Source of the DNA: Taxillus chinensis | Taxonomy: Eukaryota > Streptophyta > Magnoliopsida > Santalales > Loranthaceae | Reading direction: 5' to 3' | Length of the DNA stretch: 64,000 nt | NCBI GenBank assembly: GCA_023512835.1 | Contig: CM042087.1 | Span: forward strand, 11,445,715-11,509,714 | Part shown: positions 6,956 to 48,468 of the stretch, one piece after another | Position numbering within the stretch: position 1 is the stretch's first letter | Layout of the letters: each line of letters begins with the position of its first letter | Program-made: the position numbers and the translations under genes | The notes under the pieces: generated by a model | The model's database searches: none | What the model was told of the DNA's origin: nothing | The model's input: only the letters and a program-made list of their open reading frames with translations

Positions 6956-8160
6956 TCACAACCCCATCAAACTTTTAGCAATAACATCTCTCAAGGCATC
7001 CATTTCAAGTGATCTTGTCACCCCGGTAGTAAGAGGTTCAACATCCTCATTATCTTCAACTCTTCCATAATTATTGATGATTTGGGTAAAATGTCGATCA
7101 TGCTCGGTATGCCTCCTTATGTAGTTATGCAGAGTCATAGTTGCAATAACGATTTTAACTTGCTTTTCAAATGAATAAGAAGGCATGTCTCTTAAAATCT
7201 TCCATTTTTTCTTCCATACACCAAAAGTACGTTCAATAAAACTTCTAAGAGAAGAGTGTGCATGATTGAAGACTTCTTTATATCCTTCGGGTTGACCACT
7301 TTGACGAAACACTTGAAAATGATACTGTTCATTTTTATAAGGTCCTAGAAAACCTTTAATTTGTGGATATCCTTCATCCACTAAATAATAATTTCCTGAC
7401 AAAAAAAAACAAATATTAATCAACATCATTAAAAATTCAGATATGTTTGAAGAGAACATTCTTACCTTCTGGTGGTTTAGAAAAATTTGCACTTGGATCA
7501 CGCAAAGCGGATAAGAAAATCTAGGCATCATGAGCATTGCCTTCCCAACTAGCCAATGCATATATAAATTGCATATCAAAATTGCACACAGCCAATATAT
7601 TTTGTGTTGGTGTTCCTTTCCTACCAATAAATGGTACTTGATGTTCAGGAGCTATACGAGCCTGGACATGTACACCATCTATTGCACCAATGCAATCCTA
7701 CATTATTTTGACAAGTTAATAAAATATAAATAAAGTAACAACAATCAAGGAACAAATTGGTAATTAATTTTACCTTAAAGTGAGGCATATATCTATGGTC
7801 ATTTGATATCTGAATAGGAGTATCCTTAAATTCTAGATCTTGTGGCTTCAAAACATCAACACTCAACAAACATATAACATCTAAATCATTACTGAAATAT
7901 GTGCACACAGTCCAAGCAGAGTGTTAAAAACGTTCTTGTGCTAATCTATTTCTAACACCATGTCCTACGATGTGCAAAAACATCCCTAACATTTCAGTCA
8001 TATTTGTACTTCTTGATCCTCGTAACCCATAGTTGGCTTGTAAGTCGTTGCATAAATTGTAAAAACAATTTTTATCCATTCTAAGCATCCTAAAACATCT
8101 ATCATCATTTCCATCAAGTAGTTCTCTCAACCACTTATTTCCTATTTGGGAAGAATTCAT
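6956..8160 (-). pseudogene. PIF/Harbinger (DDE_4, HARBI1-like) transposase, two nonsense mutations
   Basis: Would catalyse transposition of the surrounding element. Three exons fit the minus strand: 8160-7774, 7697-7466 and 7395-6956, joined across GT-AG introns at 7773-7698 (76 bp) and 7465-7396 (70 bp). Motifs in order: KWLRELLDGNDDRCFRM and GLRGSRSTN (N-terminal region), CIGAIDG with the first catalytic Asp just after intron 1, YYLVDEGYPQ with the second just after intron 2, and SFIERTFGVWKKKW with the Glu. A TAA near 7925 and a TAG at 7521-7523 interrupt it where relatives have sense codons. The triad itself is kept. Family confident; the start codon is less sure because an upstream exon could exist. 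Confidence 0.87.
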
Positions 8161-8492: not shown

Positions 8493-9292
8493 CTATCCTG
8501 CATGTGCATGCGCATGCTCATGCTCATACTTGAGCCAACTAAGTTTATCAATTTCATCCATGGCCATAAACACTTCTCTCTTCTCTTTTGCACAAAATAG
8601 GTCACATACAAAAAAATATAGAGGTTTATCTAGCCCTGGGATATCTTTGAGAACCTCTATACATTTTGTTATGGTAAACTCAGGTGTCTTGTTAGAACCA
8701 GAAGATACTTCAGAACTTTTACAGCCCTCAACTGCATCTACAGGACGATTAATTTGTTGAGAAAGCATTGTTGCACCTCCCACATTCGCCTTATTTTTCC
8801 TTTTCATCCATCTTGTGGATTGTTTTCCTAGTTCCTCCCTTGATCTTTTTCTTTGAATATGTTTTGAAGGTTCTTGAATATTGTTTTCATCAGAATTACC
8901 ACTACTCTCAATTAGAGAAACTTCCACAGTAGATACTTTTTCAGATTCAGATGGAACAAATCCTGATGCAGGAGTCCAAGCATAATCCCCTGTTGCTATG
9001 GTATTCATAAACATCCTGTCAAACTTTTCTTCCATATCTGGTGCAATGCCTTCTCTGCGGAACTTTGATGCTTGTGGATATTTCTGTACATATTATAATA
9101 ATTTAGAATATGACAACATGGAAAAAAATAAAAAATGAGGAAAATGAAATACAAAGACAGCAATATTACCTGTAATTTACTTTGCCACCAATCATCAGAT
9201 GCATCAACAGTCTTCTTATTTGAATTCCATCCAAGTCCACTTTCTTTCCCAATTAAATCCTTCCACATTTTCCAATCAGTCTTAAGAACATC
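8493..9292 (-). pseudogene. Harbinger Myb/SANT-like protein (ORF1), 3' portion
   Basis: Second protein of PIF/Harbinger elements, which binds DNA and helps bring the transposase to the nucleus. On the minus strand the segment from 9292 carries the end of a Myb/SANT-like (Myb_DNA-bind_3) domain (DWKMWKDLIG, GWNSNKK, DDWWQSK). A GT-AG intron at 9169-9084 (86 bp) follows, then an acidic/basic linker (KRKRSREE-like) and a C-terminal stretch ending in a His/Ala-rich tail at 8493. The 5' part of the domain lies 30 kb away at 39503-39745, because the Ogre retrotransposon inserted inside the exon. Reading frames agree on both sides. Confidence 0.82.
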
Positions 9293-12126
9293 TGTCATCA
9301 CTGGTTTTCGTCCGGGCTCGTTTTGGGGTGAGCTCAAACTAAACCAATGGTGAGAAGTTTTAGAGTCGCCACCAACTGTTTTTGGGGTACAGTTGGATAC
9401 CCTCTACTTTGAGTAGTTTAAAGTGTGTGGTCTGCGTCATCAGAGAAGGGTTCGGGAGTTGGTTACGTGTAGGGAAGGATTAGCACCCCTACAGTGCCCT
9501 TTCGGTATCTAATTTAGGAGGAGGAGGTTTTATTTTATTTATACTGCCATAACTGGGTTAAATTTCCTCAAAAAGTCTATGATTTTTATTTGGCTAAGTT
9601 ATTTATTAAAGTCATGGTTAAAATGGATTTATCCTAAATTTCTAAAGGGAATCCTAATGGTTTTGGATTTTTGAAGTGGATAATGAGATCCTAGGGATTG
9701 GTTTGTTTTTTGGTTTTGCTCTTGAAAATTGAAGTCCTAAAAAATGTTCTTTTATTTTTCCCCTTTTTTTTGGTTTGGGTTAGAACATACATTTTGTGTT
9801 TGTTTTTCTATATTTTTTTTGTTTTTTTTTGTTTTTGTTGGAAGACATTTGGAAAACATTTTATGAAAACATTTTCAAAATATGTTGTTAAAGAGATTTT
9901 GAAAAAAACATTTTATTGCAAAACGTTTTGTTTTTTTTTTTTTGCTTTTTTTTTTTTGCTTGTTTGTTTGTTTGTTTTGTTTTTTTTTTTGAAAACATTT
10001 TGAAAATTATTTATTGAAAACGTTTTGAAAAACATTTTTGTTTTTTTGTGTTTTTTTTTGAAATTGAAAATGCATATATCAAAATAGATGTGGAGTGTGT
10101 GAGTGTGACATCCACAAAATAAAATCACTCTTTTTTTTGTATCTTTTCATCTTCTCCCTTTGCTCTCTCCTTTTTTCTTTTCTTTCTTTCTTCTTTTTTT
10201 TGTTTTTCTTTTCTTTTTACTATACTTTACATATTACAACATACACATAGGAAGAAATACAGGAAAACACAATGAAAAAGGCTGAAAAGTAATTACACCA
10301 AATATAGATAAGCTTAAAACAAAAACTAGAAAATGCTAAAAAAACAATTACACTAAATATAGATACAAATAAGCTGAAAAAGTAGTGAAAAGATAAGGGC
10401 TGAACCGACTTTGAAGCTTTGCAATGCCAATCTTCTACTTGAGCTCCCACTGGCGCTGATAGTCACTTGCTCGACTCAAAATCGACAGATCTGACAGTGG
10501 GACTTATGAAGAGACTTCCCTGGTATTTGGAGATAGGAGGGCTGGAGTGGGTGTAGGAGAAAGAAACGGGTGAAGTTGGAGTTTGCAAGGAGTGGACGAG
10601 TGATCTCTTATGATGATGATTGTAGGATTCTGTGTTTTTTCTTTGTCTGGGTTTACAAAGAGGAAGCTGGGGCGTTTTTTTTGATGATGAGGCTAGGGCG
10701 TTTTTTTTGATGATGAGGCTGGGGCGTTTCTCTCCTTTCTTTCTTCTTCAATGATCTCTTTCTTCTTTTTTCTCAATGATCTCTCTCTCTCTCTCTCTTT
10801 TTCCGCACTGGAATGATGGAGGGTTCCCTCTTCCTCTTTTTTTTTTTAACGAATTGTCGCCCTCTGTTTGTATATCCCCTCCCGCAGGGACTGACGAATG
10901 CTTCTTAAAGTGCTGCAGAAGAGTTTTTTTGGCTGGACTATCATTAATTGCAGCATTTAATGCTGCATTATTGATTTCCTCATTTTCGTCCAGGTCTTGT
11001 GCAATTTGTCGGATGGTCTGGCGATTTGTAGCTCGTGATTGCCCTTTTTAATGCTTTTGTTTAGCACATGTGACCGACAGGTACTTAAAAGAATGCTTTG
11101 TCAGATGGCCAGTGCATAAAACAAGCCCCGTGAATAAACAGCGAGAGAGATAAGCCAGCGAGGAAGCCAGCGAGAAAAATCAGCGAAGGCAAAAAAGGGT
11201 CGGAGGTTTGAAGTGTCGGCAGGTCGAAGTGTTGGAAGCGAGGCTTCGAGGGTCGAAGGGTCAGAGGTGGAAGGCGTACGGGTGCCGCGGGTCGAAGGCG
11301 TCGTAAGTCGGCGCCGTAAGTCGCGGCGTCATAAGTCGCGGGCGTCGTAAGTCGCGGGTCGAAGTGTCGGCAGCGAAGCTTCGAGGAACAACGGTCAAAG
11401 GGCCAAATGGTCAGAGTGTCGGCAGCGGGGCTTCGAGACTTCGAGGCTTCGAGGCTTCGGGGCTTTGAGGCTTCGGGGCTTCGAGGCTTCGGGGCTTCGA
11501 GGCTTTGGGGCTTCGAGTCTTCGGCTTCGAGGCTTCGGCTTCGGGGCTTCGGGGCCTCAAGGCTCTGAAGGTCAACAGGTCGAAGTGTCGGTAGGTCAAC
11601 GGTCAATGGTCAACAGTCAACCCCAAAGTTTTTTTTTAAAACTTTTAATTACCTTCTTACCCCTCACCTAAGATGCAAAAATGGATAACCTTCTAGGGAT
11701 TATTTGGGGAGATCCGTATTCGCCTACATAGGCATTTTGAAGAGTTTGGCATGATCACTTTTGGGGGCAGTTTGACCAGGGGCATTGACCGTCTTTTGGC
11801 AAGTTTGACTTTTGCAACGAAAGTTGTTTTGGCCAGAACTTCTTCATTTTAAGTCCGATTTGAGCTCGGTCAAGTGCGTTGGTCTCCAATTTTCATCCTC
11901 CATCACCTGGTGTTGGTCGTGGGGCGCTTCAAGGACTTGTAGCAGAAGTCATTAATTTTGAACTCCCTCATCTGTGTCAATTGTATCCATCTCGTGCAGA
12001 TTGGGGTAGACCATTCCTTGGAAGTATGGGATCATTGTGGACCTGTTCAACAAGGTATATGGCATGGGCAGAAAGGTATATCAAATGGGGTTAGTATGTC
12101 CAACCCGGACAAAATGGGGTCCAACA
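9293..12126 (-). repeat. Ogre 3' LTR (2834 bp)
   Basis: Matches 36706-39502 nearly base for base over long stretches, with small indels in homopolymers. It contains a T-rich segment at 9700-10230 with AAAACATTTTGAAAA words, CT-rich runs near 10740-10800 and the TTCGAGGC array at 11405-11560. An open frame at 10776-11051 is repeated in the other LTR and is not a gene. Confidence 0.93.
11405..11560. repeat. GGCTTCGAGGCTTCGGG array in the Ogre LTR
   Basis: Degenerate tandem array of 9-10 bp units built on GGCTTCGAG and GGCTTCGGG. The right LTR has a shorter version at about 38850-38945, so copy number has drifted between the two LTRs. Arrays of similar words occur in unrelated LTRs at 41490, 46520, 51360 and 60285. 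Confidence 0.75.
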
Positions 12127-12139
12127 GCTGCCTCTCTTT
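12127..12139 (-). other. Ogre polypurine tract
   Basis: Minus-strand sequence AAAGAGAGGCAGC directly before the 3' LTR start TGTTGGACC, the place where plus-strand DNA synthesis is primed. It is purine-rich and correctly placed; the exact limits are inferred. Confidence 0.6.
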
Positions 12140-12370
12140 GTGCACTGTTTGTATACAAACAACGTACAAAGATAAAAAGGGAGTCATTTTGGACGGGTTG
12201 GAGGACTTACCTGACTTACCTAGAGGAAGAAGTGGCGGTTGGGTCTCTCCCGAGAAGAAAAAGCAGCTTCACAGGCTGGTTGACTTGGATAATACTTTGA
12301 TGTGGTATCTGAGGTTGCCTACAATGCAAGGATATCGGAGATTGAAAGCCTTCTACAATGACAGGCTTGA
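12140..12370. other. Ogre 3' untranslated segment
   Basis: Between the polypurine tract and the tandem array. Short open frames overlap here but none matches a known family or continues into the array. Treated as noncoding. Confidence 0.4.
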
Positions 12371-13197
12371 ACTGGAAGATGGAAAGTCCACGGCAACGAT
12401 AGACTGGGGTTAAAATAAAAAGCCCACAGCAACGATAGGCTTGAACTAAAAGATGGAAAAGGCCCACAACAATGATGGGTGTGAACTAAAAATTGAAAGG
12501 CCCACAGCAACGATAGGCTTGAACTGAAGAATGGATAGCCCACAGCAACGATAGACTTGAATTGAAAATGGATAGCCCACAACAACGATAGGCTTGAACT
12601 AAAAATGGATAGCCCACAGTAACGATAGGCTTAAATTGAAAATGGAAAAATGAAAGGCCCACTGTAACGATAGGCTCGAATTGAAAATGGAAAGCCCACA
12701 GCAACGATAGGCTTGCATTGAAAATGGAAAAGTGAAAGGCCCACTGCAACGATAGGCTTGAATTAAAAATGGAAAGCCCACAGCAACGATAGGCTTAAAT
12801 TGAAAATGGAAAGCCCACGGCAACGATAGGCTTAAATTGAAAATGGATAGCCCACAGCAACGATAGGCTTAAATTGAAAATGGAAAGCCCACAACAATGA
12901 TAGGCTTAAATTGAAAATAGATAGCCCACAGCAACGATAGGCTTAAATTGAAAATGGAAAGCCCACAACAACGATAGGCTTAAATTGAAAATGGATAGCC
13001 CACAGCAACGATAGGCTTAAATTGAAAATGGAAAAATGAAAGGCCCACTGCAACGATAGGCTCGAATTGAAGATGGAAAGCCCACAACAACGATAGGCTT
13101 GCATTGAAAATGGAAAAGTGAAAGGCCCACTACAACGATAGGCTTGAATTAAAAATGGAAAAGCCCGGACAACGATAGGCTTAAATTGAAAATGGAA
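12371..13197. repeat. Tandem repeat, about 21 units of 37-49 bp, in the Ogre 3' region
   Basis: Every unit carries GCCCACAGCAACGATAGGCT or a close variant followed by TAAATTGAAAATGGA. Spacing is mostly 37-38 bp, with periodic longer units of about 45-47 bp where GAAAAATGAAAG is added. This longer form recurs, which suggests amplification of a higher-order block. Open frames through it are periodic by-products. Ogre/Tat elements are known to carry hypervariable tandem repeats near the 3' LTR that can seed satellite DNA. Confidence 0.92.
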
Positions 13198-13641
13198 AAA
13201 GACTTGTTGGAGACATCAATTGGAAAATGGGGAAATGCTTTAAGGAATTGGTGAGTTTGCGAAGTAACCCAATTTGGGCTCCCTCTACGAGTTCACTCAA
13301 GGAGATCGCTCTACGAGGTGACCCAAAAGGGGAAAAGTTTGTCAATTGCCAAAAGGATGCGTTTAGAGCTTTGGGAATTTGCAAAGAAAGAGTTATACAG
13401 TTGAACAAAGAAAGCTAGGATAGCTTGATGAGAAGTTTGCTGAATATGAGCTCCTAGGATCTCCAGAGGTAGCAACATTCCTGCAATTACAGAGTATGTT
13501 GAATGTATGCCAATGATGCATGAAATGCAATGTGCTGTATGCGGGGACGCATAAACCTCAACTTGTGGTGAAATATGATGCAATGCGATGTATGCATTGA
13601 ATGCCATATGATGTATTACTGAGGGTTGGCCAGGATGGAAT
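13198..13641. other. Ogre 3' region up to the copia A insertion
   Basis: No convincing gene. A short imperfect repeat, CTCTACGAG followed by TGACCCAA or TTCACTCAA, is seen near 13281-13330. The segment continues on the far side of copia A at 26458. Confidence 0.35.
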
Positions 13642-13894
13642 TGTTGGATCAAGCCCAGAATTTGGATAATGCTAATAAAGCCTTATGTAATTTGATCTGA
13701 GATCTTTTGTGTTTCTTTGATCGTTGCAGAAGATATGTTATTAATCCGGAAATACACTCGTGAGAGCAAAGCTAAGGACAGGATACATAATCCTGATCCG
13801 GACAAGAGTGAGTGTCGTCAAACACTTGGTAAATAACCAAGTCACCAATACATACGAAATAAGGAACATTCATGCGGACTAAGTCAAATTGACG

Positions 13895-14290
13895 CTAAGT
13901 AAGAGTCTTGGTTTACAAGGTCACACAAAGTAAAAGAAGACACGGAGTAAGGCATCCGAGTCTTCCATACATGCGGAGTAAGGAAGTACTAATGCGGAAT
14001 AAGGACCCGAGTCTTTATTAGACATGGAGTAAGGAAATTAGATGCGAAGCAAGGAATCTGGGCCACTCACTTATACGGAGTAAGGAACTTATATACGGAG
14101 TACGGAACTTACATATGGAGTAAGGAAGCGCCGATACGGAATAAGCACTCCGACCTTCTCGTTCACACGGAGTAAGGAAGCGCCGACACGGACTAAGGAT
14201 TCCAGTACCAAAGAGATACGGAGTAAGCAATCACTAACACAGAGTAAGGTTCCGAGCCTCATTATCTACGGAGTAAGGAAAATTACACCG
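13895..14290. repeat. CGGAGTAAGGAA repeat cluster in the A LTR
   Basis: About fifteen copies of ACGGAGTAAGGAA or variants (CGGAATAAG, CGGACTAAG), spaced mainly 17-40 bp. The same cluster is in the 3' LTR (25460-25850) and, reverse complemented and rearranged, in A' (61925-62330). Its place upstream of the TATA box suggests U3 enhancer-like repeats; function is inferred. Confidence 0.75.
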
Positions 14291-14581
14291 GACCAAGAAG
14301 ATCCGCTTCAACTCAGCCGCATTTAAAGTTATCGGCTCGCAGTGTCCCGATGTAAGACAAACTCATTGAGAACCTGAAGAATCTTACACGTGGATCACCC
14401 GGATATGTGGACACAACCTTAATTATATTTGGGAACTCATAAAGACACTTATACTCTTCAAACCCAAGATCTTGAGCTCCACAATCTGCAGCAGTCAAGG
14501 CAGAGAGATTACCGAGGGATAGTTAGTGCTGAACGCATTCCGGAACTACAAGTTCCAAGGCTGTCTCTTAGGAATGTTTTG

Positions 14582-14589
14582 TATAAATA
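14582..14589 (+). promoter_or_regulatory. TATA box of copia A 5' LTR
   Basis: TATAAATA about 315 bp before the LTR end, kept identically in the 3' LTR (26141-26148) and in A' (61619-61626, minus). Position and conservation fit the LTR core promoter. Confidence 0.65.
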
Positions 14590-14900
14590 TTCATACTTGT
14601 ACATTTGTGAAAGAGTGTGTGTGCATTTGTAAGCAAAGATTAACCCTGTGTATGCACAAGTGTTTTTGGGAGATAGAATTTGGCTAGTGTGTGAGTTCAT
14701 TTGTAAACAGAGTGTAAGAGAGTCTTGCTTCTATTTTATTGTATTTTTCTTGTGATAATAAAACAAAATATTTCCACTATCTGGTTATCTTCCGCAGTGA
14801 TTTTATCACTTAACTAGATAAGTGTTTGTGTCTTAAGAGAAAGAAAAGAGTTTCGATAAGAGCCTATTCACCCCCCTCTAGGCTCCAAGGGACCATCAAG

Positions 14901-14912
14901 TGGTATCAGAGC
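14901..14912 (+). other. Copia A primer binding site
   Basis: TGGTATCAGAGC two bases after the 5' LTR, the standard plant copia site complementary to the 3' end of initiator methionine tRNA. Confidence 0.9.
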
Positions 14913-16229: not shown

Positions 16230-17293
16230 ATTAGAATCTCTTACTACCGCATGTGATCATGAAAAGAATGAGAGACTAATAATTACTCAAATGTACAAAG
16301 ATATGGAAAGTCGAATAAACGTCTTGAATTTACAATTAATAGACTCGAAAAGGACATCACCGACTTTAGAGGAAAAGAAGCTTGGTATCACGATCTAAGA
16401 GCTGAAAATCATTTGATATATACCAATCTCTCAGGCCTAAAAGTTATAGTAAAAAGTCTCGAAAATGAACTGGAACAGAAAAAGAAATAAATCGTAAGTG
16501 GCTAAAATCCGGGGAAATAGCCTCTACCTTTAGGACCGATCCCTGACGACATCCGAGTCAAACTTGGCTTAGGTTCCGAGTCATCAACATCCATAGCTCA
16601 AGCTACCGAGTGTCCTCTTGGATTTCACTCCTAAACTAACCAACTTATATCCCTGTTAGTACATCTAAACCATTGGATGGTTTCATTTCAGGTGGAACCA
16701 TAGTTTATGATTGTGGAGTTGAGGTCATTCTGCACTTCCCGAAGCAGTAGCACCCGTAACTAAAGATGAAGGGAAGGTGCTCACAGTTAAAGCCAAAACC
16801 GTAGCACCCAAAAAGAAAGACAAGGCTAAGGCCGATGCATCTAGGGCCAAGAGCGCGTCACCCAAACGCAATGGATTAGGCCACAGGGAACAGAGTAGAA
16901 AGTCTATAAAATCTAAGAGACCGTATCCCTGTTTGTACTTCACATTATAGTGTCTGTTCCATCCGTAGGGAAATTGGTCATTATCACTATGAATGTTGGA
17001 GTTTATCCGATAACCGGCTTTGTAATCAATTTCATATCGATAAAGATCGGTTAAACAAAAAGGGTTCTTCGAGCAAAACAAAATCTAAAACTCGAAGGAG
17101 TATCTCTCCCAAGAAAATCCAAATAAAAGAGGTAGTTGAAACTAACAAGCTAAAGTCAACTTGGAGAGCTAAAAGTCCTAGCAAAATCAAATCCGTAAAT
17201 GTTGACAATAATGCTGCTCTCTCTAACCGCCCGAAACAAGTTTGGGCACCAAAAGTGTAATCTGTTGTCTTTGAGGAGCATCTCTGGAATGCA
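16230..17293 (+). other. Copia A gag-pol linker, degenerate
   Basis: The region between the zinc knuckle and protease has only short frames on the plus strand. Some (16120-16398) look like the remains of a coiled-coil stretch, and 16760-17260 is Lys/Ser-rich in one frame. Sirevirus gags are long here, so this is probably decayed gag sequence. Confidence 0.4.
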
Positions 17294-18571
17294 TTGCCGG
17301 ATCACTTGAAGTTAAAGATCAATAAAAGCAAGTGGATCCTTGATAGTGGATGCTCCGGACATATGACGGGTGATCGGACTCTGCTTGTAGAAGTTAATGA
17401 TAAACAAGGTCCATCCGTTTCATGTGGTGACAACAGCAAAGGTAAGACTATCGGGTATGGCACCTTAACTAACGGCTGTGTATCAATCACTAGAGTTGCA
17501 CTAGTCGAAGGTTTAAAGCATAATTTGCTAAGTGTCAGTAATTTATGTGACAAAGGATTTACTGTTTCCTTTTTGTCCAACACTTGTACAGTAAGAGAAA
17601 ACTTATCCGGAGAAGTTAAGTTATCCGGATCAAGAGATGGGGACATTTACTCAGTGGTCTTAAGAAATAATTCTTCTAACCCTGTATGCTTCCTCACTAA
17701 AGCATCAGATGAAGACAATTGGCTATGGCACAAGCGATGCGCACATTTAAACTTTAAGACTTTGTTTAAATTAGCGTCACTTGATCTTGTCACTGGTCTA
17801 CCTAAACTCAAGTTCTCTAGAGACTCTCTGTCGAGAATGCCAATTGGCCAAATGGACCAAACATAGCTTTAAGAGCAAATCGGTTAATTCAATAATCGCT
17901 CCTCTACAACTTCTTCATATGGACCTATGTGGTCCTATATCTGTTCCATCACTAGCTAGTGCGAGATATACCCTAGTGGTTATCGATGATTTCACCAGAT
18001 ACACATGGGTGATGTTCCTGAAATCAAAGGATCAAACTTTTGAGCATCTAGTAGATCTCTTCAACTGGATAAGCAACTCACAAGGACTGAGCATAAAGTG
18101 CATCAGGAGTGATCATGGTACGGAATTTGACTTTTCGAAATGAGATCATATTGTTCTCGAACAGGGCATATAGCATGACTTCTCTGCTCCCCGGAACTCC
18201 ACAACAAAATGGAGTAGCTGAGCGCAAGAATCGTACTTTAGTTGAAGCTGGTAGATCCATGTTAGCGGGGGCAACGCTTCCTCTCGCCTATGGGCTGAAG
18301 TCGTGTCCACCGCCTGCTATGTTCGAAACGAACTCTAATAAATAAATCTACCATGAAAACACCCTATGAGATGTCGAGAGGACGAAAACCTTCAATTTCA
18401 CATTTCAGAGCTTTTGGGTGTACTTGCTATATATTGATAAATGGCAAAGAGACCCGGAATAAATTTGAACCAAAATCGATGATGGGATTTTTGTTGGGTA
18501 CTCATTACATAGCAAGGCTTATCGGGTCTTTAATAGAAAACTTTTCAAAGTTGAAGAATCTATCCATGTGA
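17294..18571 (+). pseudogene. Copia A protease and integrase, frameshifted
   Basis: Protease: WILDSGCSGHMTG (near 17330) carries the aspartic-protease DSG. The gag-pre-integrase region (WLWHKRCAHLNFKTL) follows, broken at about 17840. The integrase core has HMDLCGPIS (first Asp, near 17920), IRSDHGTEF (second Asp, near 18110) and, after a frame change, GTPQQNGVAERKNR with the catalytic Glu (near 18200). FGCTCYI, FEPKSMMGF and the C-terminal segment follow to 18571. All catalytic residues can be found, but at least three frame changes separate them. It would process the polyprotein and insert the cDNA. Confidence 0.88.
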
Positions 18572-19024
18572 CTTTTGATGAAGCTAACCTTGATTGGTCA
18601 AAAGTCGGTTCTTCAAGTTCTAATGTGCAGGTCATGGACAGCAACGTCGATTATTCGAAGTTTATGAATGTTCCTGTTACACATCTTGACCAACCACGTG
18701 GCATCGGCGAAGCACAAAGAAATTATATGGATGATGCTACGGATGACTCGGACTCCGGACTACCATTTAGCTCCGGATATACTCCTACGGATACCCAAAA
18801 TTCGAAGCACCTTCAAGTCCGTCCGGACTAGTTAACACCGAAAGAAACAGTGTTGAAGAACCATCTAGTTCAACCGTACCTCTCAATACGGAAACATCTA
18901 GCCCGGACGAAGCTCAACCAGCGGATACAACCAACCACCTAATCTGGAAGAGCTTCAAATTGTTCAAGATCATCCATCACATGCACGTAATTACAGATGG
19001 ACTCGAAACCATCCCTCGGATCAA
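18572..19024 (+). other. Copia A integrase C-terminal linker
   Basis: Asp/Ser/Pro-rich coding-like sequence joining integrase to RT (an open frame at 18568-18831 has a stop at its end). It is low in conservation in this family and there is no separate gene. Confidence 0.5.
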
Positions 19025-20640
19025 GTGATTGGTGATCTTACTGTTGGTGTAAGAACAAGAGCAGCCACCTCCAACATGAGTCTTTACTCGTGTTTTCTAT
19101 CTCAAATAGAACCAAAGGTGGTAGATGAAGCTCTTCAGGATTCGAATTGGATAGAAGCCATGCAAGAAGAGCTGAATCAATTTAAGAGAAATAATGTGTG
19201 GACCTTAGTATCAAGGCCTAAGTCTCAGCAAGTCATTAGCGTTAAATGGGTGTTCCGGAACAAGCTTGATACGGATGGAATAGTAATCCGGAACAAAGCC
19301 AGACTGGTAGCCAAAGGATATCGTCAAGAAGAAGGAATAGATTATGATGAGACCTTTGCTCCGGTAGCAAGACTTGAGGCAATCCGAATGTTTCCGGCGT
19401 ATGCTTCATATGAAAACTTCATAGTTTATCAAATGGACGTCAAGAGCGCATTCCTGAATGGAGATCTTCAAGAGGAGGTGTACGTTGAACAACCTCCCGG
19501 CTTCATTGAACCTAAGGCAGGACATCTTGTCTACAAGCTTCGGAAAGCTTTATATGGTTTGAAGCAAGCTCCAAGAGCCTGGTACGACACACTGTCAGAA
19601 TTCCTACTTGTTCACAACTTCCAAAAAGGGAAGATAGACACCACCCTATTTCTACGAAAAGAGAAAGGACACACCCTGATCGTACAAATATACGTGGATG
19701 ATATCATTTTTGGATCAACGAATCCGAAGCTTTGTGAAGAGTTTGCTAAGTTAATGACAGGCAAGTTTGAGATGAGCATGATGGGAGAACTGTCCTACTT
19801 CCTTGGAATAGAAGTTAAACAATTAAAGGAAGGAATCTTCATTAATCAAGCTAAGTACACTCGCGATCTTATTAAGAAGTTTGGTATGGAAGATTCATCT
19901 CCCGTCAAAACTCCCATGCCTGTCAGTGCCAAGTTAGATCCGAATGTTGACGGCATATTAGTAAATGTGACTGACTACAGAGGGATGATCGGATCCTTAC
20001 TGTATCTTATAGCAAGTCGCCCAGACATTATGTTTGCAACTTGCATCTGTGCACGATACCAGGCGAATCCCAAGGAGTCACATATGCTTCATGTTAAACG
20101 GATATTAAGGTATCTCAAGGGAACGATGAATTTGGGACTCTGGTACCCAAAGGAGTCCAACTTCACCTTATCCAGGATACTCGATGCCGATTTCGCTGGA
20201 TGTCGCATCGACAAGAAAAGCACAAGTGGTACATGTCGGTTTCTTGGAAATAGATTAATTTCATGGTTCAAGAAGAAGCGAAATTCCGTATCAACCTCTC
20301 TCTTTGAGCGGAATATATAGTCTGGGAGTTGCTGCGCACAGCTACTCTGGATGCAAAGTCAACTTACTGACTACGGTTTCAACATGTCATCTATTCCACT
20401 CTACTGCAACAACACTAGCGCTATTGCTATCAGCAACAATCCTGTCATGTATCCTAAGACGAAGCATATTGAAGTCCGGTAACACTTCATACGTGATCAT
20501 GTTCTTAAAAGTCACATCTCAGGTGGAACACGTTGCTTCCCGAAGATCAACCGGCCGACATTTTTACAAAGCCCCTACCTGATGCAAGATTCTCGAACTA
20601 CTCTTCCGTTTAGGTATGCTCGACTTTTCGCATAGTTTCA
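19025..20640 (+). pseudogene. Copia A reverse transcriptase (open) and RNase H (frameshifted)
   Basis: The 431-residue frame 19025-20320 is an uninterrupted copia [57 protein letters not shown] and the catalytic IYVDDIIF (YVDD about residues 223-226). LSYFLGIEV and the start of RNase H ([15 protein letters not shown]) follow. The frame then shifts at about 20285, and the RNase H remainder (YCNNTSAIAISNNP, PKTKHIEVR) is found in other frames to about 20640. It copies the element RNA into DNA; RNase H removes the RNA. The RT is the best preserved part of this element. Confidence 0.92.
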
Positions 20641-22306
20641 CATTTAATTTACCCAACAAGATTACTTACTATCAGCATGGATTGTGCTTTTATTGAAAGT
20701 GGAAGATACATACCGATTTTAATGCTGATCATACTTATCGATTAACGGCTTCATGCTTCGATATTAATATCAACTTCATTATGGGAGGATGCTTGCGTTT
20801 CCCGATGAAGTCGTTTAAGCTAACATGATTAAAGCTTATATGATTTACCTCTTTTCGGCTTCATGATCTTAAATTCCACTAATCACCACATGACAACAGA
20901 TGTTCATTTAGATTACTCTATTAACATGTATAGTTGAAGAAGTGAAATGGGTTAGCTCGGAATGCCTGGTGGATGAATACTCAATCGCAGTCTGGTCAGC
21001 TTCTGAAGTATAGTTTTCTAATAAGATAGACAGTGCTGAATTCTACAAACTGGAAATGTCAATCGAGAGGATTGCACAATCTACGGGGGAGAAAATGCTT
21101 TATATATTATTCAGTAATACCCCCCGTATATGTCTCATGACCTCTTTTCTGGCTGTCTATTTAAGGGGGAGCTTTTCATTGAGAGGATTAAATGATCTAC
21201 GGGGGAGCAGTAATGAACCCCTAATATGTCTCGGATACTCCCTCCTCTAAACTTTTACTTCCGGATCTGACAGGACATGCTGTTTTGGATCAGAAAAGTG
21301 GCCTGCTTGGATGTATTTTCTTTCTTCAACCATGCATTTTAATCGGCTAATCACCTGCTACATTTGACATGTGTTCGCTTCCCCATTTTTCACTCATGAA
21401 TCCTAAATTGGCCAAATCATATGATCTTTAATTAATCTTAGCTACGTTGTTCAGCAAGACGGTTTCGCTATGTTGACCTATATGAACTTGTGTATGATTA
21501 TCTGACAAATGCCCTGAGTCAGTAATATTGCTCATTCTCACGTATGTATCTGTCTCTTACATGCTTTGCAATGCATAAGTTCTGTTTCTCATTAGTTCGG
21601 ATTATGTCGTTTTTCACTGATTATTTTCCCTAATCCGTACTAATCCTTGCCTGTTAAGCTTTTGTATTTTCAGTTCATTTCTTTTTTTAGCTACAGGTTC
21701 AGATTCTCTTTGCAACCGTATCGATAAATCTAGTCCATAGTCTTGTATTTGAAGTGTTGTGGTACTTCTCTTCTCTTCGACTTATTGACTGCAAAGAAAT
21801 CTACTTTACTCTCTCACCGAACTCGTCTACTACGGGCACGGTCTACTTTTCATCCGGATACTCTTCCTCGACTATTATTTACTCCAGGATGATTGTCGGT
21901 TCATTCCTCCGGACCCCTGACACGGTCTAATTGCGACGATCCAAGTCTTCCTATATGTCGCGTGCTTTTGAGGAGGAATCATGATGATTCATTAAATGCA
22001 AATCTCGGGATGCACACACACTTCTCTGGATGGCAACCAGCTGTTACACTTACTTAGTCATGCGGTCTCCACGACATCGTTTCATTCGGAGGCGCATCGA
22101 TATCCGGACTAATGACATCACCTGTCAAGCGGGTCCCTATTTCACTCGCCAATTCCTAGACCCACCGACATTTATGGATTCGGTCTTATATGTTCCGATC
22201 ATTCTGCGTAGCACGAGTATTGCTCATTTCAAATCCCTAAACTTCTCGTTGCTCCTTCCATCGCCAAGACCTCACCTTTCCTCTTGTCCTTCAAATTTCA
22301 TTTGCA
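20641..22306 (+). other. Spacer between RNase H and the extra ORF of copia A, with three polypurine-like tracts
   Basis: No coding frame of note. Three GGGGGAG-type tracts resembling the element's real polypurine tract occur at 21084-21095, 21163-21172 and 21201-21210. Sireviruses are known for multiple polypurine tracts. Here they lie upstream of the extra ORF. Confidence 0.55.
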
Positions 22307-24203
22307 ATGGCACCCATAATCTCTCTTTCCGGTGTTAATCCTGGCCATCTGGTTGATTGGAATGCTGTCTCTAATCCACCGGATTGGTTTTTCCAGCTTC
22401 GCCCTCTCCTTGAAGCCTCGCATATACTTAACCTGATCTCCAATCCCGTTGATCTTCTTATCGAAGACATCATTGAGTATTACCAACGGATTCGCTGCAC
22501 CACCGATTCTATACTCTCCTATGTCCGCGGTGAATCCACCACCATCACTCGGCCGTTCTCCGCGCCTTCTCTCCATCTACCCCCCAGTGAACCACAAAGA
22601 CCCCGATGCTGCTCTAATGGCGGTTTCTATGGGTTGCACCCACAAAGGCAAGGAATACAAGGTGAAATCCTTCCAAGGTCGCTATCGCTGTATGGCGACC
22701 ATACTGAGTCGCTGTTTACTGGCTCGCACTTCAGCTCTGGACTCGGTTCCTTATGATCTTCTCCTGGCCATGTATGGCGTTTTTGAAGGTCTTCCGCTGG
22801 ATTGGGGGACATTTTTGTTCCGACTGCTGCAGACTGGTCCTAAGAACCATTCTTTCGGGCGCATACTAAGCATCGTCTTCCGGCATCTCAATCCGGACCA
22901 TTTCGCCCGATATGATGCTGTTCCATTTCCCTCGGCTTACTACCTCCGTCATCTTACACCGGGATGGGAACATGACGGCCCGCCGTCCCTCTGCGGCTCT
23001 CCGCATTCTCCCTACCTCGGAACAACAAGGCGGTTCGTTGGTGACCCCTCTGACAGCCAAGCCCCTGACGTCGATTCCGCACCCGATCCTCCCGGATTCG
23101 GTCCGTTAAAGACACCTTCTCATTCTCGGGCCTCCCAAGACAAGATCCGTGCCGAACCGTCCGAGGTTGCGGGACCATCTCAGCGCAGTGCTCCTAAAGC
23201 CGTTTCCTCATCCCCCTCTGTCGCCGATGTCACCACTCCCTCCACCTCCGCTTATTGCTTGCCGCGGTTGATACCGCCATTCTTTGTCGCCATCGCCGAT
23301 GTCCCGGCATCTCCTCCGGAAGCTCCTTTGCCTCCCCTACCTCAACCCCGAGATTATCTTGCCTATCTCACCACCGACACCTTAACGGACCTTTGGCTCC
23401 GTTTCAGCCTAGTCCACACCTCCTCTATTCCTGACACCGATCTCCGGGTGTTTTACACACGCAATACCCAATCCCCGGAGACCATGATCATCTGGAACTT
23501 GGACCAAGGCTTTCTTACGCCGGCCGCCATTCCCGATGTGCCGTTCCCTACACCCTCCGGCCCAGTCCCTGCCGTATGGAGTCCTTCCCCTGCTAAGGCT
23601 GGACCCTCTTCTCCTGCCGCCGCGATTCCCGTGGTTGACTTATCTGGTCAAAGCGGGTCCATTGCTCCGGATGCCTCCGATGCTCCGGATGCCTCTGATG
23701 CTCCGGATGCTCCTGCTACTGCTGATGCTACTCCTGCGGACTCCTCTGCCCCGCGCCCTCCTGCTCCTGTTCATGCGGGGGAGTCCTCCAAAGCCCCGGA
23801 GTTGGTCCTTGGGCGTGCTTCTTTTGGCACGGTTCACTCCGACGCTGTGCTCTCCGCTCAGCTGGACCGACACGCTCACGCTCATAGCGCCCAAATCTCC
23901 GCTATCACCACTAAGGTTGATGCACTTGGCGCCCAACTCCTCTCCACTCTCACTGATTCCTCCACTTCCATGGAACAGAAGATGGATCTCGTCGCCTCGT
24001 CTGTACATTCCTTGTCTACCTCCTTCTCGGACCTGGCGCACACGATGGCCCGCCCTCCCGTTGCTTCCCGGCGATCTGCCCAACCGGGGGAGAGAGTGTC
24101 ATCTGATCCTTCTGCTCCTCCTCCTGCACCACAACCATCGACTCGTGCTGAAAAGCGGCCCGCCTCTTCATTCCTTCAGGGGAGTTCAAATTCCCAAACG
24201 TAG
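22307..24203 (+). pseudogene. Extra ORF of copia A, N-terminal and linker part (transposon-associated/envelope-like)
   Basis: ATG at 22307 opens a frame with VDWNAV, then LLIEDIIEYYQRIRC and YVRGESTTIT, which resembles the putative plant transposon protein domain (Pfam Transposase_32-like; recalled, not searched). A frameshift near 22560 passes to the frame ending at 24203, which has YKVKSFQGRYRCMATIL, NHSFGRILSIVFRHLNPDHF, about 300 residues of Pro/Ser/Ala-rich linker with Asp-Ala-Pro repeats (near 23660-23720), and a hydrophobic heptad stretch (LSAQLDRH, ISAITTKVDALGAQLLSTL). An in-frame CAG and one extra G near 24177 separate it from the Ulp1 part. No membrane segment or signal peptide is evident, so a true envelope role is doubtful. 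Confidence 0.75.
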
Positions 24204-25056
24204 CCGCTTCTCTCGCCCAAGCTCCTCGATCGCAGCCTGCTCCTCCTCCATCCTCCTCATCCCAGCCTGATACCTTCCTCCCATCATATGTGGCGTTTGA
24301 CCCTTCTGATGCGGATAGAAGCTTGCGCAAGGCAATGAAATCCTATGTTGCGTCTTCTGCTGAGAGAAGATGTCTTTCTGAAATGTACCCTTTCTCCCCG
24401 GCCGACATTCAGACTCTTTGTTCGGAGAAAGGACTCTTTACTACGAAGACATTGACAACTTCTCGAGGGTCGCTAAAATGGAGATGAGGCTTTTCGTCTC
24501 TCTACAAGGATGGGCACTTGTTTGAAGTTTGCCGTGTTGGAATGAAGGCTATCTTCCCAGTGTGGATCTAATTCAGTCCTTCATCGACGGAACTGATGAG
24601 GATAGCAAGCCATGGAAAACTCTCTCAACTATCCTCATTCCGTACCGGATCATGTCGCCACACTTCATGATGGCTGTCTTCATGATTCAGTCCAAGCAAA
24701 TGATTCTCATTGATTCTCATCAGATTGTGGAGCACTTTGTAAGAAAGAATCAATGGGAACCTCTGTGTCTCAAGCCGATCAAGGCTGTGAAGAAAGCTGG
24801 ATTATATGAAGAGTTAGGCATCACACCCTTGCGTCCGACTGAGAAACTCAAGGCGACATTCCGGGGCAAAAAGCAAGTGCCACAACAGCCGGATGGAGAT
24901 AGCTGCGGAGCCTTTGTCTGTCACTTCATCAAGTCATTCTTAACTGTGGACAAATATTGGAGCCAACACACTACTTTTACGATGAAGCAGACAATGGAGC
25001 TTAGAGAGAAAGCAGCAACTATGATCTTCAAGTATAGTAAGCCTTATGTTCCTTAG
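24204..25056 (+). pseudogene. Ulp1/C48-like cysteine protease domain of copia A extra ORF
   Basis: Resembles the SUMO/ubiquitin-like protease fold. The segment begins around YVAFDPSDADRSLRKAMKSY (24290), has a frame break near 24440-24490, and then stays open 24529-25056. In that 175-residue piece the Ulp1 catalytic set is visible: His45 (MSPHF), Asp62 (MILIDS), Gln120 and Cys126 (QQPDGDSCGAFVCHF; TGC at 24904-24906). The spacing His-Asp 17 and Gln-Cys 6 equals that of yeast Ulp1 (H514, D531, Q574, C580). The usual Trp after His is Phe. It might deconjugate SUMO from host or element proteins, or cleave the element's own proteins; this is inference. Related C48 domains are known in plant MULE (Kaonashi-type) DNA transposons. 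Confidence 0.85.
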
Positions 25057-25190: not shown

Positions 25191-25200
25191 TGGGGGAGAT
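25191..25200 (+). other. Copia A polypurine tract
   Basis: TGGGGGAGAT directly before the 3' LTR; identical in A' (62546-62555, minus) and nearly so in B2. Confidence 0.9.
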
Positions 25201-26457
25201 TATTGGATCAAGCCCAGAATTTGAATAATGCTAATAAAGCCTTATGTAATTTGATCTGAGGTCTTTTGTGTTTCTTTGATCGTTGCAGAAGATATGTTAT
25301 TAATCCGGAAATACACTTGTGTGAGCAAAGCTAAGGACAGGATACATAATCCTGATCCGGACAAGAGTGAGTGTCGTCAAACACTTGGTAAATAACCAAG
25401 TCACCAATACATACGGAATAAGGAACATTCGTGCAGACTAAGTCAAATTGACGCTAAGTAAGAGTCTTGGTTTACAAGGTCGCACGAAGTAAAAGAAGAC
25501 ACGGAGTAAGGCATCCGAGTCTTCCATACATGCGGAGTAAGGAAGTACTAATGCGGAATAAGGACCCGAGTCTTTATTAGACACAGAGTAAGGAAATTAG
25601 ATGCGGAGTAAGGAATCCGGGCCACTCACTTATACGGAGTAAGGAACTTATATACGGAGTAAGGAACTTACATACGGAGTAAGGAAGCGCTGATACGGAA
25701 TAAGCACTCTGGCCTTCTCGTTCACACGGAGTAAGGAAGCGCTGACACGGACTAAGGATTCCAGTACCAAATAGATACGGAGTAAGCAATCACTGACAAG
25801 GAGTAAGGTTCCGAGCCTCATTAGCTACGGAGTAAGGAAAATTACACCGGACAAGAAAATATTGCTTCAACTCAACCGCATTTAAAGTTATCAGCTCGCA
25901 GTGTCCCGATGTAAGACAAACTCGTTGAGAACCTGAAGAATCTTACACGTGGATCACCCGGATATGTGGACACAACCTTAATTATATTTGGGAACTCACA
26001 AAGACACTTATACTCTTCAAACCCAAGATCTTGAGCTCCACAATCTGCAGCAGTCAAGGCAGAGAGATTACCGAGGGATAGTTAGTGCTGAACGCATTCC
26101 GGAACTACAAGTTCCAAGGCTGTCTCTTAGGAATGTTTTGTATAAATATTCATACTTGTACATTTGTGAAAGAGTGTGTGTGCATTTGTAAGCAAAGATT
26201 AACCCTGTGTATGCACAAGTGTTTTTGGGAGATAGAATTTGGCTAGTGTGTGAGTTCATTTGTAAACAGAGTGTAAGAGAGTCTTGCTTCTATTTTGTTG
26301 TATTTATCTTGTGATAATAAAACAAAATATTTCCACTATCTGGTTATCTTCCGCAGTGATTTTATCACTTAACTAGATAAGTGTTTGTGTCTTAAGAGAA
26401 AGAAAAGAGTTTCGATAGAAACCTATTCACCCCCCTATAGGCTCCAAGGGACCATCA
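25201..26457 (+). repeat. Copia A 3' LTR
   Basis: Same length as the 5' LTR and about 97 percent alike where I compared. It starts TATTGG (G to A change in the terminal TG) and ends GGGACCATCA. TATA box at 26141-26148; CGGAGTAAGGA cluster at 25460-25850. Confidence 0.93.
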
Positions 26458-27227
26458 GGAAATGTCGTTGGAGAGGTTGGCTAACATTCAACTTGTTGGG
26501 GAACAACGTTCTCTTTGGATGGAGAGCCCGTCCTGTCTTTCTTTGGGGAACTCCCTGTTGTGCATGAAGGGTCTGTTAAATTTCGCCTCGCCATATTGAG
26601 GAGCTTGATTTGACGGCTTCTCTAGGGATAGTGATATCCCGTGGAGATATGAGTACTCCGAGTTGGGGGCCTTAAGTTGTTTGGGGATTTTGAGCTTGGC
26701 CCTACTCATAAAGCAATGCTAGAAGAGCTCTATGGGGATTTAAGATGTTCTACTTAAATGTGAAATGAAGACGATGTAACATGATTAAAGAGATAAAAAG
26801 ATTTTTGTTGGTTTAATTCCACAAAACATATTTGAATCATAAAAAGTGTCCTATTGTCATAATCTGATAAACAGAATCACAAGTCTTTAAAAGCATAATG
26901 TACAAATTTGATTCGAACGTGCCGCAGGTTTGACCAAGTCTTCCACTGTTTGCGGTCATTGTTTTTGGATGATGTTGTCTCTACCGCTTGCAACAGACCC
27001 TATTTGTTGTGGTCCTGATCCTTTCAGTTTCTGACTGAACTGATTTCACCCATCAAGATTTATTGTTGGCTTTGTATTTTACCCTTGGTGCCCTTTCAGG
27101 TTTTCACCAAGTCCGCCTTTTTTTTTTTTTTTTTTGTCTTTCCTTGGAGCTTTGTATTTTACCCTTGGTGCCCTTTCGGGTGTTCACCAAGTCCACTCAT
27201 TACAGGGATTGTTGGGAGGTATGAGAA
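26458..27227. other. Ogre region downstream of integrase
   Basis: Noncoding Ogre sequence continuing from 13641. A stretch of about 45 bp containing TTTTACCCTTGGTGCCCTTT and TTCACCAAGTCC is present twice (about 27072-27115 and 27150-27193), separated by a T-run near 27120-27136. An open frame at 26488-26709 has no recognisable content. Confidence 0.45.
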
Positions 27228-28109
27228 TTAAGCATGAAACTTTTTGACGGTGTCACTATTCACTGGATTAGGAAGCTCATCTCCGTCCATTTTGGCAAGG
27301 ATCAATGCGCCTCTTGAGAATGCTTTTTTCACAACATATGGGCCTTCATAATTGGGAGTCCACTTGCCTCTATGGTCGTGTTGAATTGGCAAGATCTTTT
27401 TGAGGACAAGATCACCCTCTTGAAAGCTTCTGGGCTTCACCTTTTTATTGTAATTGTTCATCATTCTCTGTTGATACAGCTGTCCTCTGCAAACTGCTGC
27501 CAGGCGCTTGCCCTCAATTAAACTTAACTGCTCATAACAACTTTGGCCCCATTCTGCTTCTTCGAGCTGAGTATCCTTAAGTACTCGGAGGGAAGGTATC
27601 TCCACTTCGACCGGTAGAACTGCTTCCATGCCGTAGACCAAAGAAAATGGAGTTGCCCCGGTCGATGTACGCACTGAGGTACGATAAGCATGCAAAGCGT
27701 ATGGTAGCTTCTCATGCCAATCTTTGTACGTTTCAGTCATCTTTCTGATAATGTTCTTGATGTTCTTGTTGGCGGCCTCGACTGCTCCATTCATCTTTGG
27801 GCGATAGGGGGTCGAGTTACGGTGTTGAATTTTGTATGTTTCACACAACCTCCCTATCATCCGGCTGTTCAAATTGGCAGCATTGTCCGTTATGATCTGC
27901 TCGGGAAGCCCATATCGGCATATGATGTTGTTCCGCATAAATTGAAGTACCACAGCCTGTGTGACATTAGCATATGATGCTGCTTCTACCCACTTGGTGA
28001 AGTAATCAATGGCTACCAAAATGAAACGATGACCATTAGAAGCTTTTGGAGATATTGGTTCGATAACGTCAATGCCCCAAAGTGAGAACGGCCACGGGGA
28101 AACCATCAC
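27228..28109 (-). pseudogene. Ogre integrase catalytic core and C-terminus (open frame)
   Basis: The 293-residue frame is intact. Catalytic residues are Asp14 (WGIDVI), Asp75 (IITDNA) and Glu111 (NGAVEAANK), the D-D-35-E arrangement. GATPFSLVYGMEAVLPVEV follows, then a GPY/F-like C-terminal module (NYEGPYVV) and a basic end. It inserts the cDNA into the host chromosome. The N-terminal zinc-binding part is in another frame at 28106-28507, so the protein is split by a frameshift near 28172. Confidence 0.92.
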
Positions 28110-28507
28110 GTGTAGTTTGGACGGCAGTACTTGGATCTTATCGCCATAAATTTGACACTTGAGGCATTGTGCACATATTCAATGCAATCTTTTTCCATGG
28201 TGACCCAATAATAGCCCATTCGCATGATTTGTCTTGTTAATGCATGTCCATTTGCATGTGAACCACATTCCCCTTCATGCACTTCTTTCATTATTTGTGT
28301 CGATTCTTCTTTTGCCACACACCGTAATAACACCATGTCATGGTTTCTCTTGTCCGGAATCGAGCCATCAAGATAATAGTTGGATGCTGACCTTCGGATA
28401 TTTCTTTTATCAGACTCAGAGGCCTCAGCTGGATACTCTTGTTTAAGCAAGTATTGTTTGATATCATTGTACCAAGGCTTTTCTTCGGTATTTTCGTCAA
28501 TGGCCAT
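28106..28507 (-). pseudogene. Ogre integrase H2C2 zinc-binding part
   Basis: Contains the linker after RNase H (WYNDIKQYL) and the H...H half of the H2C2 zinc site (VHEGECGSHANGHAL). The two Cys (CAQCLKC-like) appear only in the next frame around 28150-28172, showing a small indel there. It joins the catalytic core directly downstream. Confidence 0.82.
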
Positions 28508-29126: not shown

Positions 29127-30260
29127 TTAAGCGATTCTTCTAGAAATGGATGGTTTTTCCAAGAGATATCTAAGTGGATCATGCCTCGAAATCAGCCATG
29201 TGGTATGATAAAGAGTGTATTGCCTCAATCGTCTTGTTATCCAAACAAGGGCACAACACGTTTTCTCCAAGGGTGTGTAGTTTTCTTCATTGATGGTGAA
29301 CTTCTTGCTGAGGTAATAAGTGGCTTGCTCCTTCTTGCCTGTAGAATCGTGTTGCCCCAAGACACAACCCATCGCTGACTCCTGAACGGTCAAGTATAAG
29401 ATCAGAGGTCTATCCGGTCCTGGTGGATTAGACAGATATTGTTTGATCTTGTCGAAAGCTTCTTGACACTTGTCATTCCAAATTTCTGCGTTGTTCTTTG
29501 GTAAAGTCTTGAAAATGGGTTCACGGTGTGGTGTCAATTGGGAAATAAATCGGGCAATGTAATTCAGTCGCCCTAGGAATCCTCTAACCTCCTTGATGGT
29601 CCGTGGTGGCGGCATATCTTGGATAGCTCGAACTTTATCTGGATCGATTTCAACTCCCTTTTGGGTCACAATGAAACCTAACAGTTTTCCCGACCTGGCT
29701 CCGAAAGTGCACTTTTCAGGATTCAATTTCAGCTGATATTTCCGTAGCCTGTTGAAGAGCTTGCGGAGTACTTTGATATGATCTTCAGTGCTTCGTGATT
29801 TGGCTATCATGTCGTCCACATATACTTCGACTTCCTTATGCATCATGTCGTGGAATAGGGTCACCATGGCTCGCCGATAGGTTGCCCTGCGTTCCTCAGA
29901 CCAAAAGGCATCACATTATAGCAGAAAGTGCCCCAAAGTGTCGTGAATGTGGTCCTCTCTTTGTGTTCGGGGGCCATATGAATTTGATTATAGCCCGAGA
30001 AACCATCCATGAATGAGAACAGGGCGTGTTTTGCTGTATTATCCACTAGCGTATCAATGTGAGGAAGTGGGAAGTTATCCTTCGACCGGCCCGGTTCAGA
30101 TCTCTATAGTCGACACACATGCGTACTTTGCCTCCTTTTTTCGGTCATGGTACAACATTGGCCACCCATTCTGGATAATGGGAGACACTTAAGAAACCTA
30201 CATCCCATTGCTTTTTGACTTCTTCTTTAATCTTCAATATCATCTCCGGTCTCATTCTTC
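29127..30260 (-). pseudogene. Ogre reverse transcriptase and ordinary RNase H, frameshifted
   Basis: From right to left: a degraded RT start (30047-30260), then FSFMDGFSGYNQI and FTTLWGTFCYNVMPFGL (29861-30046), a frame change near 29868, then YVDDMIAKS with the catalytic Asp pair (about 29808-29828), KCTFGARSGKLLGF, VRGFLGRLNYIARF and the RNase H part (GCVLGQHD, YYLSKKF, TPLEKTCCALVW) ending at 29127. A stop after SRRIA cuts the end off. It copies the genomic RNA of the element. Confidence 0.9.
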
Positions 30261-36685: not shown

Positions 36686-36703
36686 TCCCCAGCAGAGTCG
36701 CCA
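36686..36703 (-). other. Ogre primer binding site
   Basis: Two bases inside the 5' LTR the plus strand reads TCCCCAGCAGAGTCGCCA, a tRNA-like 3' end with terminal CCA; the element strand is its complement. From memory this resembles the tRNA-Arg site used by Ogre/Tat elements. Confidence 0.8.
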
Positions 36704-36705
36704 GC

Positions 36706-46497: not shown

Positions 46498-46519
46498 TGT
46501 TGGGAATATAGGATTTGAT

Positions 46520-48449: not shown

Positions 48450-48460
48450 GTTGTGTTGTC

Positions 48461-48468
48461 TATATAAG
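48461..48468 (+). promoter_or_regulatory. TATA box of solo LTR 47963-49732
   Basis: TATATAAG directly after the ACGT palindromes; the other family copy has its counterpart at 59965-59972. Confidence 0.7.

Follow-up and report, generated by a model that had tools for sequence, protein, structure and literature searches.

Sireviruses (the SIRE/Maximus group of Ty1/copia retrotransposons) account for roughly 21% of the nuclear genome of maize (PMC3599292; here and throughout, papers are cited for the portions drawn upon). A third gene is present in 74% of SIRE elements and sorts into 19 groups that show little or no resemblance to one another (PMC6317226). These third genes were named envelope-like for their transmembrane and coiled-coil parts, and their function is unproven and controversial (PMC3414828). 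Peptidase_C48 (Ulp1-family) domains are known from other transposon classes, including Mutator-like elements (MULEs), CACTA, Ginger and Crypton (PMC13317346, PMC8978399, PMC2836005, PMC3212892), in agreement with an earlier note on the DNA analysed here, which was made from sequence alone and mentioned such domains in plant MULEs and some other DNA transposons. Here we describe a window (the whole stretch of DNA analysed, 64,000 nt) of Taxillus chinensis (Loranthaceae; contig CM042087.1, assembly GCA_023512835.1) in which the third gene of a Sirevirus-type Ty1/copia element, copia A, ends in a predicted C48 cysteine-protease domain. A second copy of the same family (copy C) and an element of a second family (copia B) carry the gene as well; all of these loci lie inside the window, with the 5' ends of copia B and copy C outside it.

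Each of the closest described systems shares part of this arrangement. Sirevirus elements with eORF-3'F resemble copia A in their primer-binding, attachment and poly-C signals and, in part, in their polypurine tracts, in their large long terminal repeats (LTRs), and in having a sense third gene with a coiled coil between pol and the 3' LTR, but the copia A third gene has a C48 domain at its end and no clear transmembrane segment. The KIU/Kaonashi Ulp1 genes of Vandal MULEs, which lack terminal inverted repeats (non-TIR), likewise encode a transposon accessory protein with a Ulp1 domain and a link to anti-silencing (PMC13317346), but they belong to a DNA transposon and are likened by description, not by sequence. 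In CACTA elements, ORF2 is a plant transposon accessory open reading frame (ORF) that encodes Transposase_24 and then, last, Peptidase_C48 (PMC8978399); CACTA is again a DNA transposon, and Transposase_24 is not listed for the gene pieces covered by Pfam scans reported to E ≤ 10, in which HMMER's own filtering removes most hits with an E-value higher than about 0.1. Utopia/NeSL elements are retroelements with a Ulp1-like cysteine protease, but they are non-LTR elements of nematodes with the protease at the N terminus (PMC4640811). Scans of viral contigs with the copia A C48 domain, the A+C C48 alignment and the copia A reverse transcriptase (RT) returned no relative.

No C48 domain in a plant copia element is described among the literature matches listed, which cover main texts in part and leave supplementary tables (including Additional file 4 of PMC6317226) outside their scope. 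A survey of 121 angiosperm genomes gives, in the portion cited, 15 unusual domains, all in Gypsy elements, and no domain gain in copia (PMC9289625), and Ulp1 is unmentioned in parts 1-2 of 3 of a review devoted to extra ORFs of LTR elements in plants (PMC7264820). A C48 domain in a plant copia third gene thus appears to be new, its absence from print being unproven, whereas C48 in other transposon classes is known.

The third gene of copia A and its C48 domain

Judged by its signals and domains, copia A is a Sirevirus-type Ty1/copia element, with the following features.

13642-14898 (+): 5' LTR, TG...CA, from the direct repeat and the sequence; poly-C signal CACCCCCC at 14869
14899-14912 (+): intervening bases AGTGG and primer-binding site TATCAGAGC, Sirevirus-type by comparison with the consensus (PMC2829016)
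15113-15883 (+): gag, Retrotran_gag_2, E 4.8e-24 (Pfam)
17261-18345 (+): pol, with Pol_BBD, GAG-pre-integrase and integrase core, in several frames
18902-20320 (+): pol, copia reverse transcriptase, RVT_2, E 1.2e-79
21085-21207 (+): three further GGGGGAG sites resembling polypurine tracts (21085, 21165 and 21201), which lie upstream of the third gene within the linker
22307-25056 (+): third gene in the accessory or 'envelope-like' position, in several frames in copy A
22307-22955 (+): N-terminal domain of the third gene, with a homologue in copia B (25% identity, E 2e-11; 32% identity, E 4e-9)
23943-24047 (+): likely coiled-coil stretch, from a crude heptad score
24526-25056 (+): C-terminal Peptidase_C48 domain, from the open frame, the PF02902 match and the SENP1 alignment
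25192-25200 (+): terminal polypurine tract GGGGGAG plus AT, before the 3' LTR
25201-26457 (+): 3' LTR

The third gene runs from an ATG at 22307 to position 25056, both limits as first given in the earlier note. It encodes an N-terminal domain, then a middle part that is rich in proline and serine and includes the likely coiled coil, and lastly a C48 cysteine-protease domain at the C terminus. The Pfam search suggested for the last of these bore the assignment out: the open frame at 24526-25056 (+) scores E 8.5e-7 and 29.5 bits with PF02902 (Peptidase_C48), whose curated cut-off is 20.7 bits. PF02902 also exceeds this cut-off in copy C (31.5 bits) and copia B (40.1 bits). The match of copia A alone is limited to profile positions 159-212, the Gln-Cys part, and the His-Asp part of the domain is assigned because of the copia B match (profile positions 80-185) and the joint A+B+C profile. 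The catalytic residues occur in the order and at the spacing proposed earlier, with His at 24661-24663, Asp at 24712-24714 (+17), Gln at 24886-24888 and Cys at 24904-24906 (+6), and SENP1 has the same +17 and +6 spacing in the printed alignment. The PDGDSCG block, also pointed out before, is present and identical in copies A and C. Directly behind the catalytic His, copia A has Phe where SENP1 and copia B have Trp. A complete set of catalytic residues, as claimed at the outset, is found in the C48 domain of copia A but not in an intact gene, because the gene is spread over several frames; copy A is consequently unable to make the whole protein.

Sequence comparisons with the PDB (matches kept at E ≤ 1) returned mostly Ulp1-like enzymes. 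With copia A alone, all 11 matches are SENP1, SENP2 or Chlamydia Dub1, the best at a weak E of 0.025; with an A+C profile, 10 of the 11 matches belong to the SENP1/SENP2/Dub1 group and the eleventh is an unrelated yeast chaperone, Sis1 (E 0.65); and with an A+B+C profile, all 14 are SENP1, SENP2, Ulp1 or Dub1, the best being SENP1 at E 1.6e-4. SENP1, yeast Ulp1 and Chlamydia Dub1 thus resemble the domain in His-Asp-Gln-Cys order and spacing and in the profile match, but at these E-values they are remote relatives, and Phe follows the His in copia A. AlphaFold2 models of the domain reached a mean predicted local distance difference test score (pLDDT) of 37.8 with two alignment rows and 41.7 with three, too weak for use, and fold searches with the second model gave no reliable match. 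Because C48 recurs in two families at the same place, a chance match is very unlikely. The proposal of a Ulp1-family domain in a Ty1/copia third gene is accordingly supported, and evidence from another copy, from another family and from purifying selection is added to it below.

The element around the gene carries several Sirevirus signals. The junction CA/AGTGG TATCAGAGC at 14897-14912 matches the Sirevirus consensus (PMC2829016, the source of all signal consensuses used here), and the poly-C signal CACCCCCC occurs at 14869, 26428 and 61367 (-), at the Sirevirus distance of about 21 bp from the LTR end. The terminal polypurine tract in A and C is TGGGGGAG plus AT, one letter off the octamer AGGGGGAG, and is followed by TG in C and TA in A. 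The extra tracts of copia A, one of three being the exact octamer AGGGGGAG, lie upstream of the third gene and not near the 3' LTR, where the multiple polypurine tracts of Sireviruses are mostly found (PMC2829016). The LTRs of copia A have diverged from each other at 45 of 1258 sites (Kimura two-parameter distance, K2P, 0.037), and its flanks, GGAAT (13637-13641) and GGAAA (26458-26462), resemble a target duplication of 5 bp in which one base is mismatched.

Two repeat structures occur around copia A. A tandem array of 37- and 45-bp units occupies 12341-13200 beside it, and long direct repeats at 9289-12127 and 36702-39502, about 27.4 kb apart, are 93-95% identical. These repeats are perhaps the LTRs of a Gypsy element that hosts the copia A insertion (integrase at 27228-28178, -; RT at 29130-29915, -).

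A second family, a second copy and selection on the gene

Copia B and copy C, both on the reverse strand, comprise the following features.

57115-61094 (-): copia B pol remains, with SH3_retrovirus at 60483-61094, RVT_2 at 57979-58557 and an RNase H-like piece at 57115-57456
53404-55191 (-): N-terminal domain and coiled-coil part of the third gene in copia B
52877-53494 (-): copia B C48 domain, PF02902 E 4.8e-10
52446-52684 (-): two AGGGGGAG polypurine tracts of copia B, at 52684 and 52455, before the 3' LTR, with a third at 56585
61334-62545 (-): 3' LTR of copy C, a member of the copia A family
62689-63999 (-): third gene of copy C, partial, continuing beyond the window end, with at least 3 lesions in the visible part
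62689-63060 (-): C48 piece of copy C, PF02902 E 2e-7

The third gene of copia B, which represents a second Sirevirus-type family, is homologous to that of copia A and holds the same position in the element. The RTs of the two families are 71-75% identical, their C48 domains 23% identical (E 9e-9), and their N-terminal domains related at the levels listed for copia A, all homology E-values being those of single comparisons; a likely coiled-coil stretch, called by the same crude score, lies upstream of the C48 part in both. This homology along the gene indicates a third gene that is common to two families and evolves far faster than pol. The catalytic positions of the copia B domain are His at 53291-53293, Asp at 53240-53242, Gln at 53081-53083 and, at the Cys position (53063-53065), Phe, which may be a family trait or later damage in what is a single decayed copy. 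The last AGGGGGAG tract of copia B is followed by AT and then TT, the Sirevirus pattern being AT/TG at the 3' LTR. Pfam scans of the coiled-coil parts returned assorted sub-threshold families only. Athila ORF1 and Transposase_32 were considered as identities for the N-terminal domain and rejected, the only match being Transposase_32 in copia B at 12.3 bits against a cut-off of 45.

Further repeats accompany copia B. An inverted relative of its 3' LTR lies at 46500-47909 (+), 86.6% identical over 1241 columns, near a Retrotrans_gag ORF at 44933-45667. The extra DNA between the copia B integrase and RT contains short tandem repeats at 59305-59450 and 59983-60160 and has inverted relatives at 48392-49455.

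Copy C spans 61334-64000 (-), where the window end cuts it. It is a separate insertion, because its 3' flank differs from that of copia A, and the presence of the gene in both copies shows that it belongs to the family. The open piece of copy C keeps Asp, Gln and Cys. Copy C was apparently inserted into copia B upstream of the B integrase, with B pol pieces directly below the 3' LTR of C (61334).

Copies A and C were compared codon by codon in three clear-frame blocks, with codons touching gaps removed. Across the resulting 429 codons, the nonsynonymous rate (dN) is 0.0465, the synonymous rate (dS) 0.3385 and dN/dS 0.137 (bootstrap 0.094-0.193). The ratio is 0.108 in the C48 block (174 codons; bootstrap 0.055-0.181), 0.12 in the coiled-coil block and 0.246 in the linker block, and dN of the C48 block is the lowest of the three (0.032 versus 0.056 and 0.058). 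The two alternative frames give ratios of 1.16 and 1.72. Random scattering of the observed differences (2000 trials) yields a mean ratio of 0.71 for all codons and 0.65 for the C48 block, and in neither case does any of the 2000 trials reach the observed value. As a further control, LTR sequence read as coding gives 0.79, 0.40 and 0.90 in its frames, so that a ratio of about 0.4 can arise by composition; the 0.11-0.14 of the gene lies well below it. Since dN/dS falls below all random scatterings, selection preserved the protein while the family spread. In this one copy pair, the third-gene protein was kept by purifying selection in an active lineage before the copies decayed.

Proposed function and rival readings

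Cleavage of SUMO, counteraction of silencing and maturation of the element's own proteins, the roles first suggested for the C48 domain, are conjectural. The reading we prefer, at a probability of roughly 0.42, is that the C48 third gene encodes an active isopeptidase of ubiquitin-like proteins that lowers the SUMOylation of host repressors and so acts as an anti-silencing accessory gene. Intact copies would encode an isopeptidase active on SUMO or a related ubiquitin-like protein; the N-terminal and coiled-coil parts would target it to a host chromatin or transcription complex, or to the particle or DNA of the element itself; and lowered SUMOylation of host repressors would raise transcription of the element or ease its integration. 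In its favour are the C48 matches above the curated cut-off at all three loci, the catalytic spacing shared with SENP1, the low dN/dS, the A-B homology along the gene and the CpG ratio at the gene start given below, for which copia A is weak support. Precedents exist in both retroelements and DNA transposons. In yeast, RNA of the copia element Ty1 rises when Ulp1 is mutated or untethered, when Ubc9 is inactivated or when Siz1 and Siz2 are lost, and the authors ascribe the rise to decreased SUMOylation of cellular factors (PMC8585004). In Vandal MULEs, VANC genes that bear Ulp1 (KIU) are associated with hypomethylation of elements related to them (PMC13317346).

Several observations weigh against an active anti-silencing isopeptidase. 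In Arabidopsis, the contact between MOM1 and SUMO is reported not to be required for silencing (PMC6084981). The nearest solved relatives of the domain are SUMO proteases and a bacterial deubiquitinase/deneddylase alike, and the copia B C48 domain alone has no PDB match at E ≤ 1. Neither of the two A-family copies in the window is intact, and the single copy of copia B has Phe in place of the catalytic Cys. A simple pattern scan of the gene pieces other than the N-terminal part of copia A found no basic cluster resembling a nuclear-localisation signal.

C48-like enzymes include viral maturation proteases such as adenain, and the domain could instead mature the element's own proteins (Gag, the third-gene protein or a particle component), leaving host SUMO untouched. 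The conserved domain does stand at the C terminus of a long element-encoded protein, and Phe follows the His in copia A, unlike the Trp of SENP1. However, copia elements already mature Gag-Pol with their own aspartic protease, the third gene (ATG at 22307) lies apart from gag-pol, the RT/RNase H frames ending near 20600, and the nearest solved relatives cleave ubiquitin-like proteins. We therefore consider maturation of the element's own proteins unlikely.

A slightly less likely role is that of a pseudoenzyme or binding module, whose fold is retained to bind a ubiquitin-like protein or another partner and for which catalysis is optional. Selection was measured on the protein, not on catalysis, and copia B combines Phe at the Cys position with retained His, Asp and Gln. 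Yet copia B is one decayed copy in which the Phe may be later damage, copia A retains all four residues, the open piece of copy C retains three of them, and the PDGDSCG block is unchanged between the two.

A true envelope-like gene that ends in a C48-like fold and acts at membranes or in cell-to-cell movement is very unlikely on the hydropathy of its product. The usual threshold for a transmembrane segment is about 1.6. In Kyte-Doolittle profiles (19-residue windows), the maxima are 1.15 (N-terminal part), 1.24, 0.55 and 1.47 in the pieces of copia A and 1.58, 1.07 and 1.28 in those of copia B; no clear transmembrane segment is present in either, although one B window comes just below the threshold, and a weak segment is possible in both. 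A passenger gene, either a captured host gene piece or a DNA transposon (MULE or CACTA) nested inside copia A, is nearly excluded despite the C48 domains of the DNA transposons cited above and the occurrence of gene capture by LTR elements (PMC7264820), since the same gene is found in copy C with a different 3' flank, a homologous gene is found in family B, the gene is under purifying selection, and the only transposase family listed for its pieces (scan to E ≤ 10) is the sub-threshold Transposase_32 in copia B (E 0.16).

Extending the isopeptidase reading to Sireviruses at large is doubtful. In that case the 'envelope-like' gene would be in origin a fast-evolving Ulp1-family isopeptidase serving anti-SUMO counter-silencing, and C48 would have been overlooked in many families because of rapid sequence drift of the kind that separates A from B, in which the C48 domains have diverged so much further than the RTs. 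The start of the gene offers a separate point of comparison with Sireviruses, which have CpG islands at the starts of their ENV genes, giving rise to the idea of an internal promoter (PMC2829016). At the copia B gene start, the CpG ratio is about 1, versus 0.07-0.31 upstream; at the copia A gene start it is 0.95-1.18, versus 0.51 to 1.12 upstream, a weak contrast. These values would fit the idea of a CpG island and internal promoter.

Window context and significance

Other transposon remains lie elsewhere in the window. An ORF at 3111-4271 (+) matches DUF4371 (E 2e-86) and is probably, we assume, a relative of hAT-type transposases. A DDE_Tnp_4 transposase piece at 6959-7651 (-) is adjacent to an At2g29880_C ORF at 8496-9092 (-), a pair that we take to resemble a PIF/Harbinger element. 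Rfam gave no match within the window at gathering thresholds.

In families A and B, the 'envelope-like' gene is, on the evidence of its domains, a C48-protease-like accessory gene. A C48 domain under selection replaces the undefined label 'envelope-like' with an enzyme hypothesis that can be tested, and a third gene of this kind would link plant retroelements to SUMO control, as in yeast Ty1 (PMC8585004).

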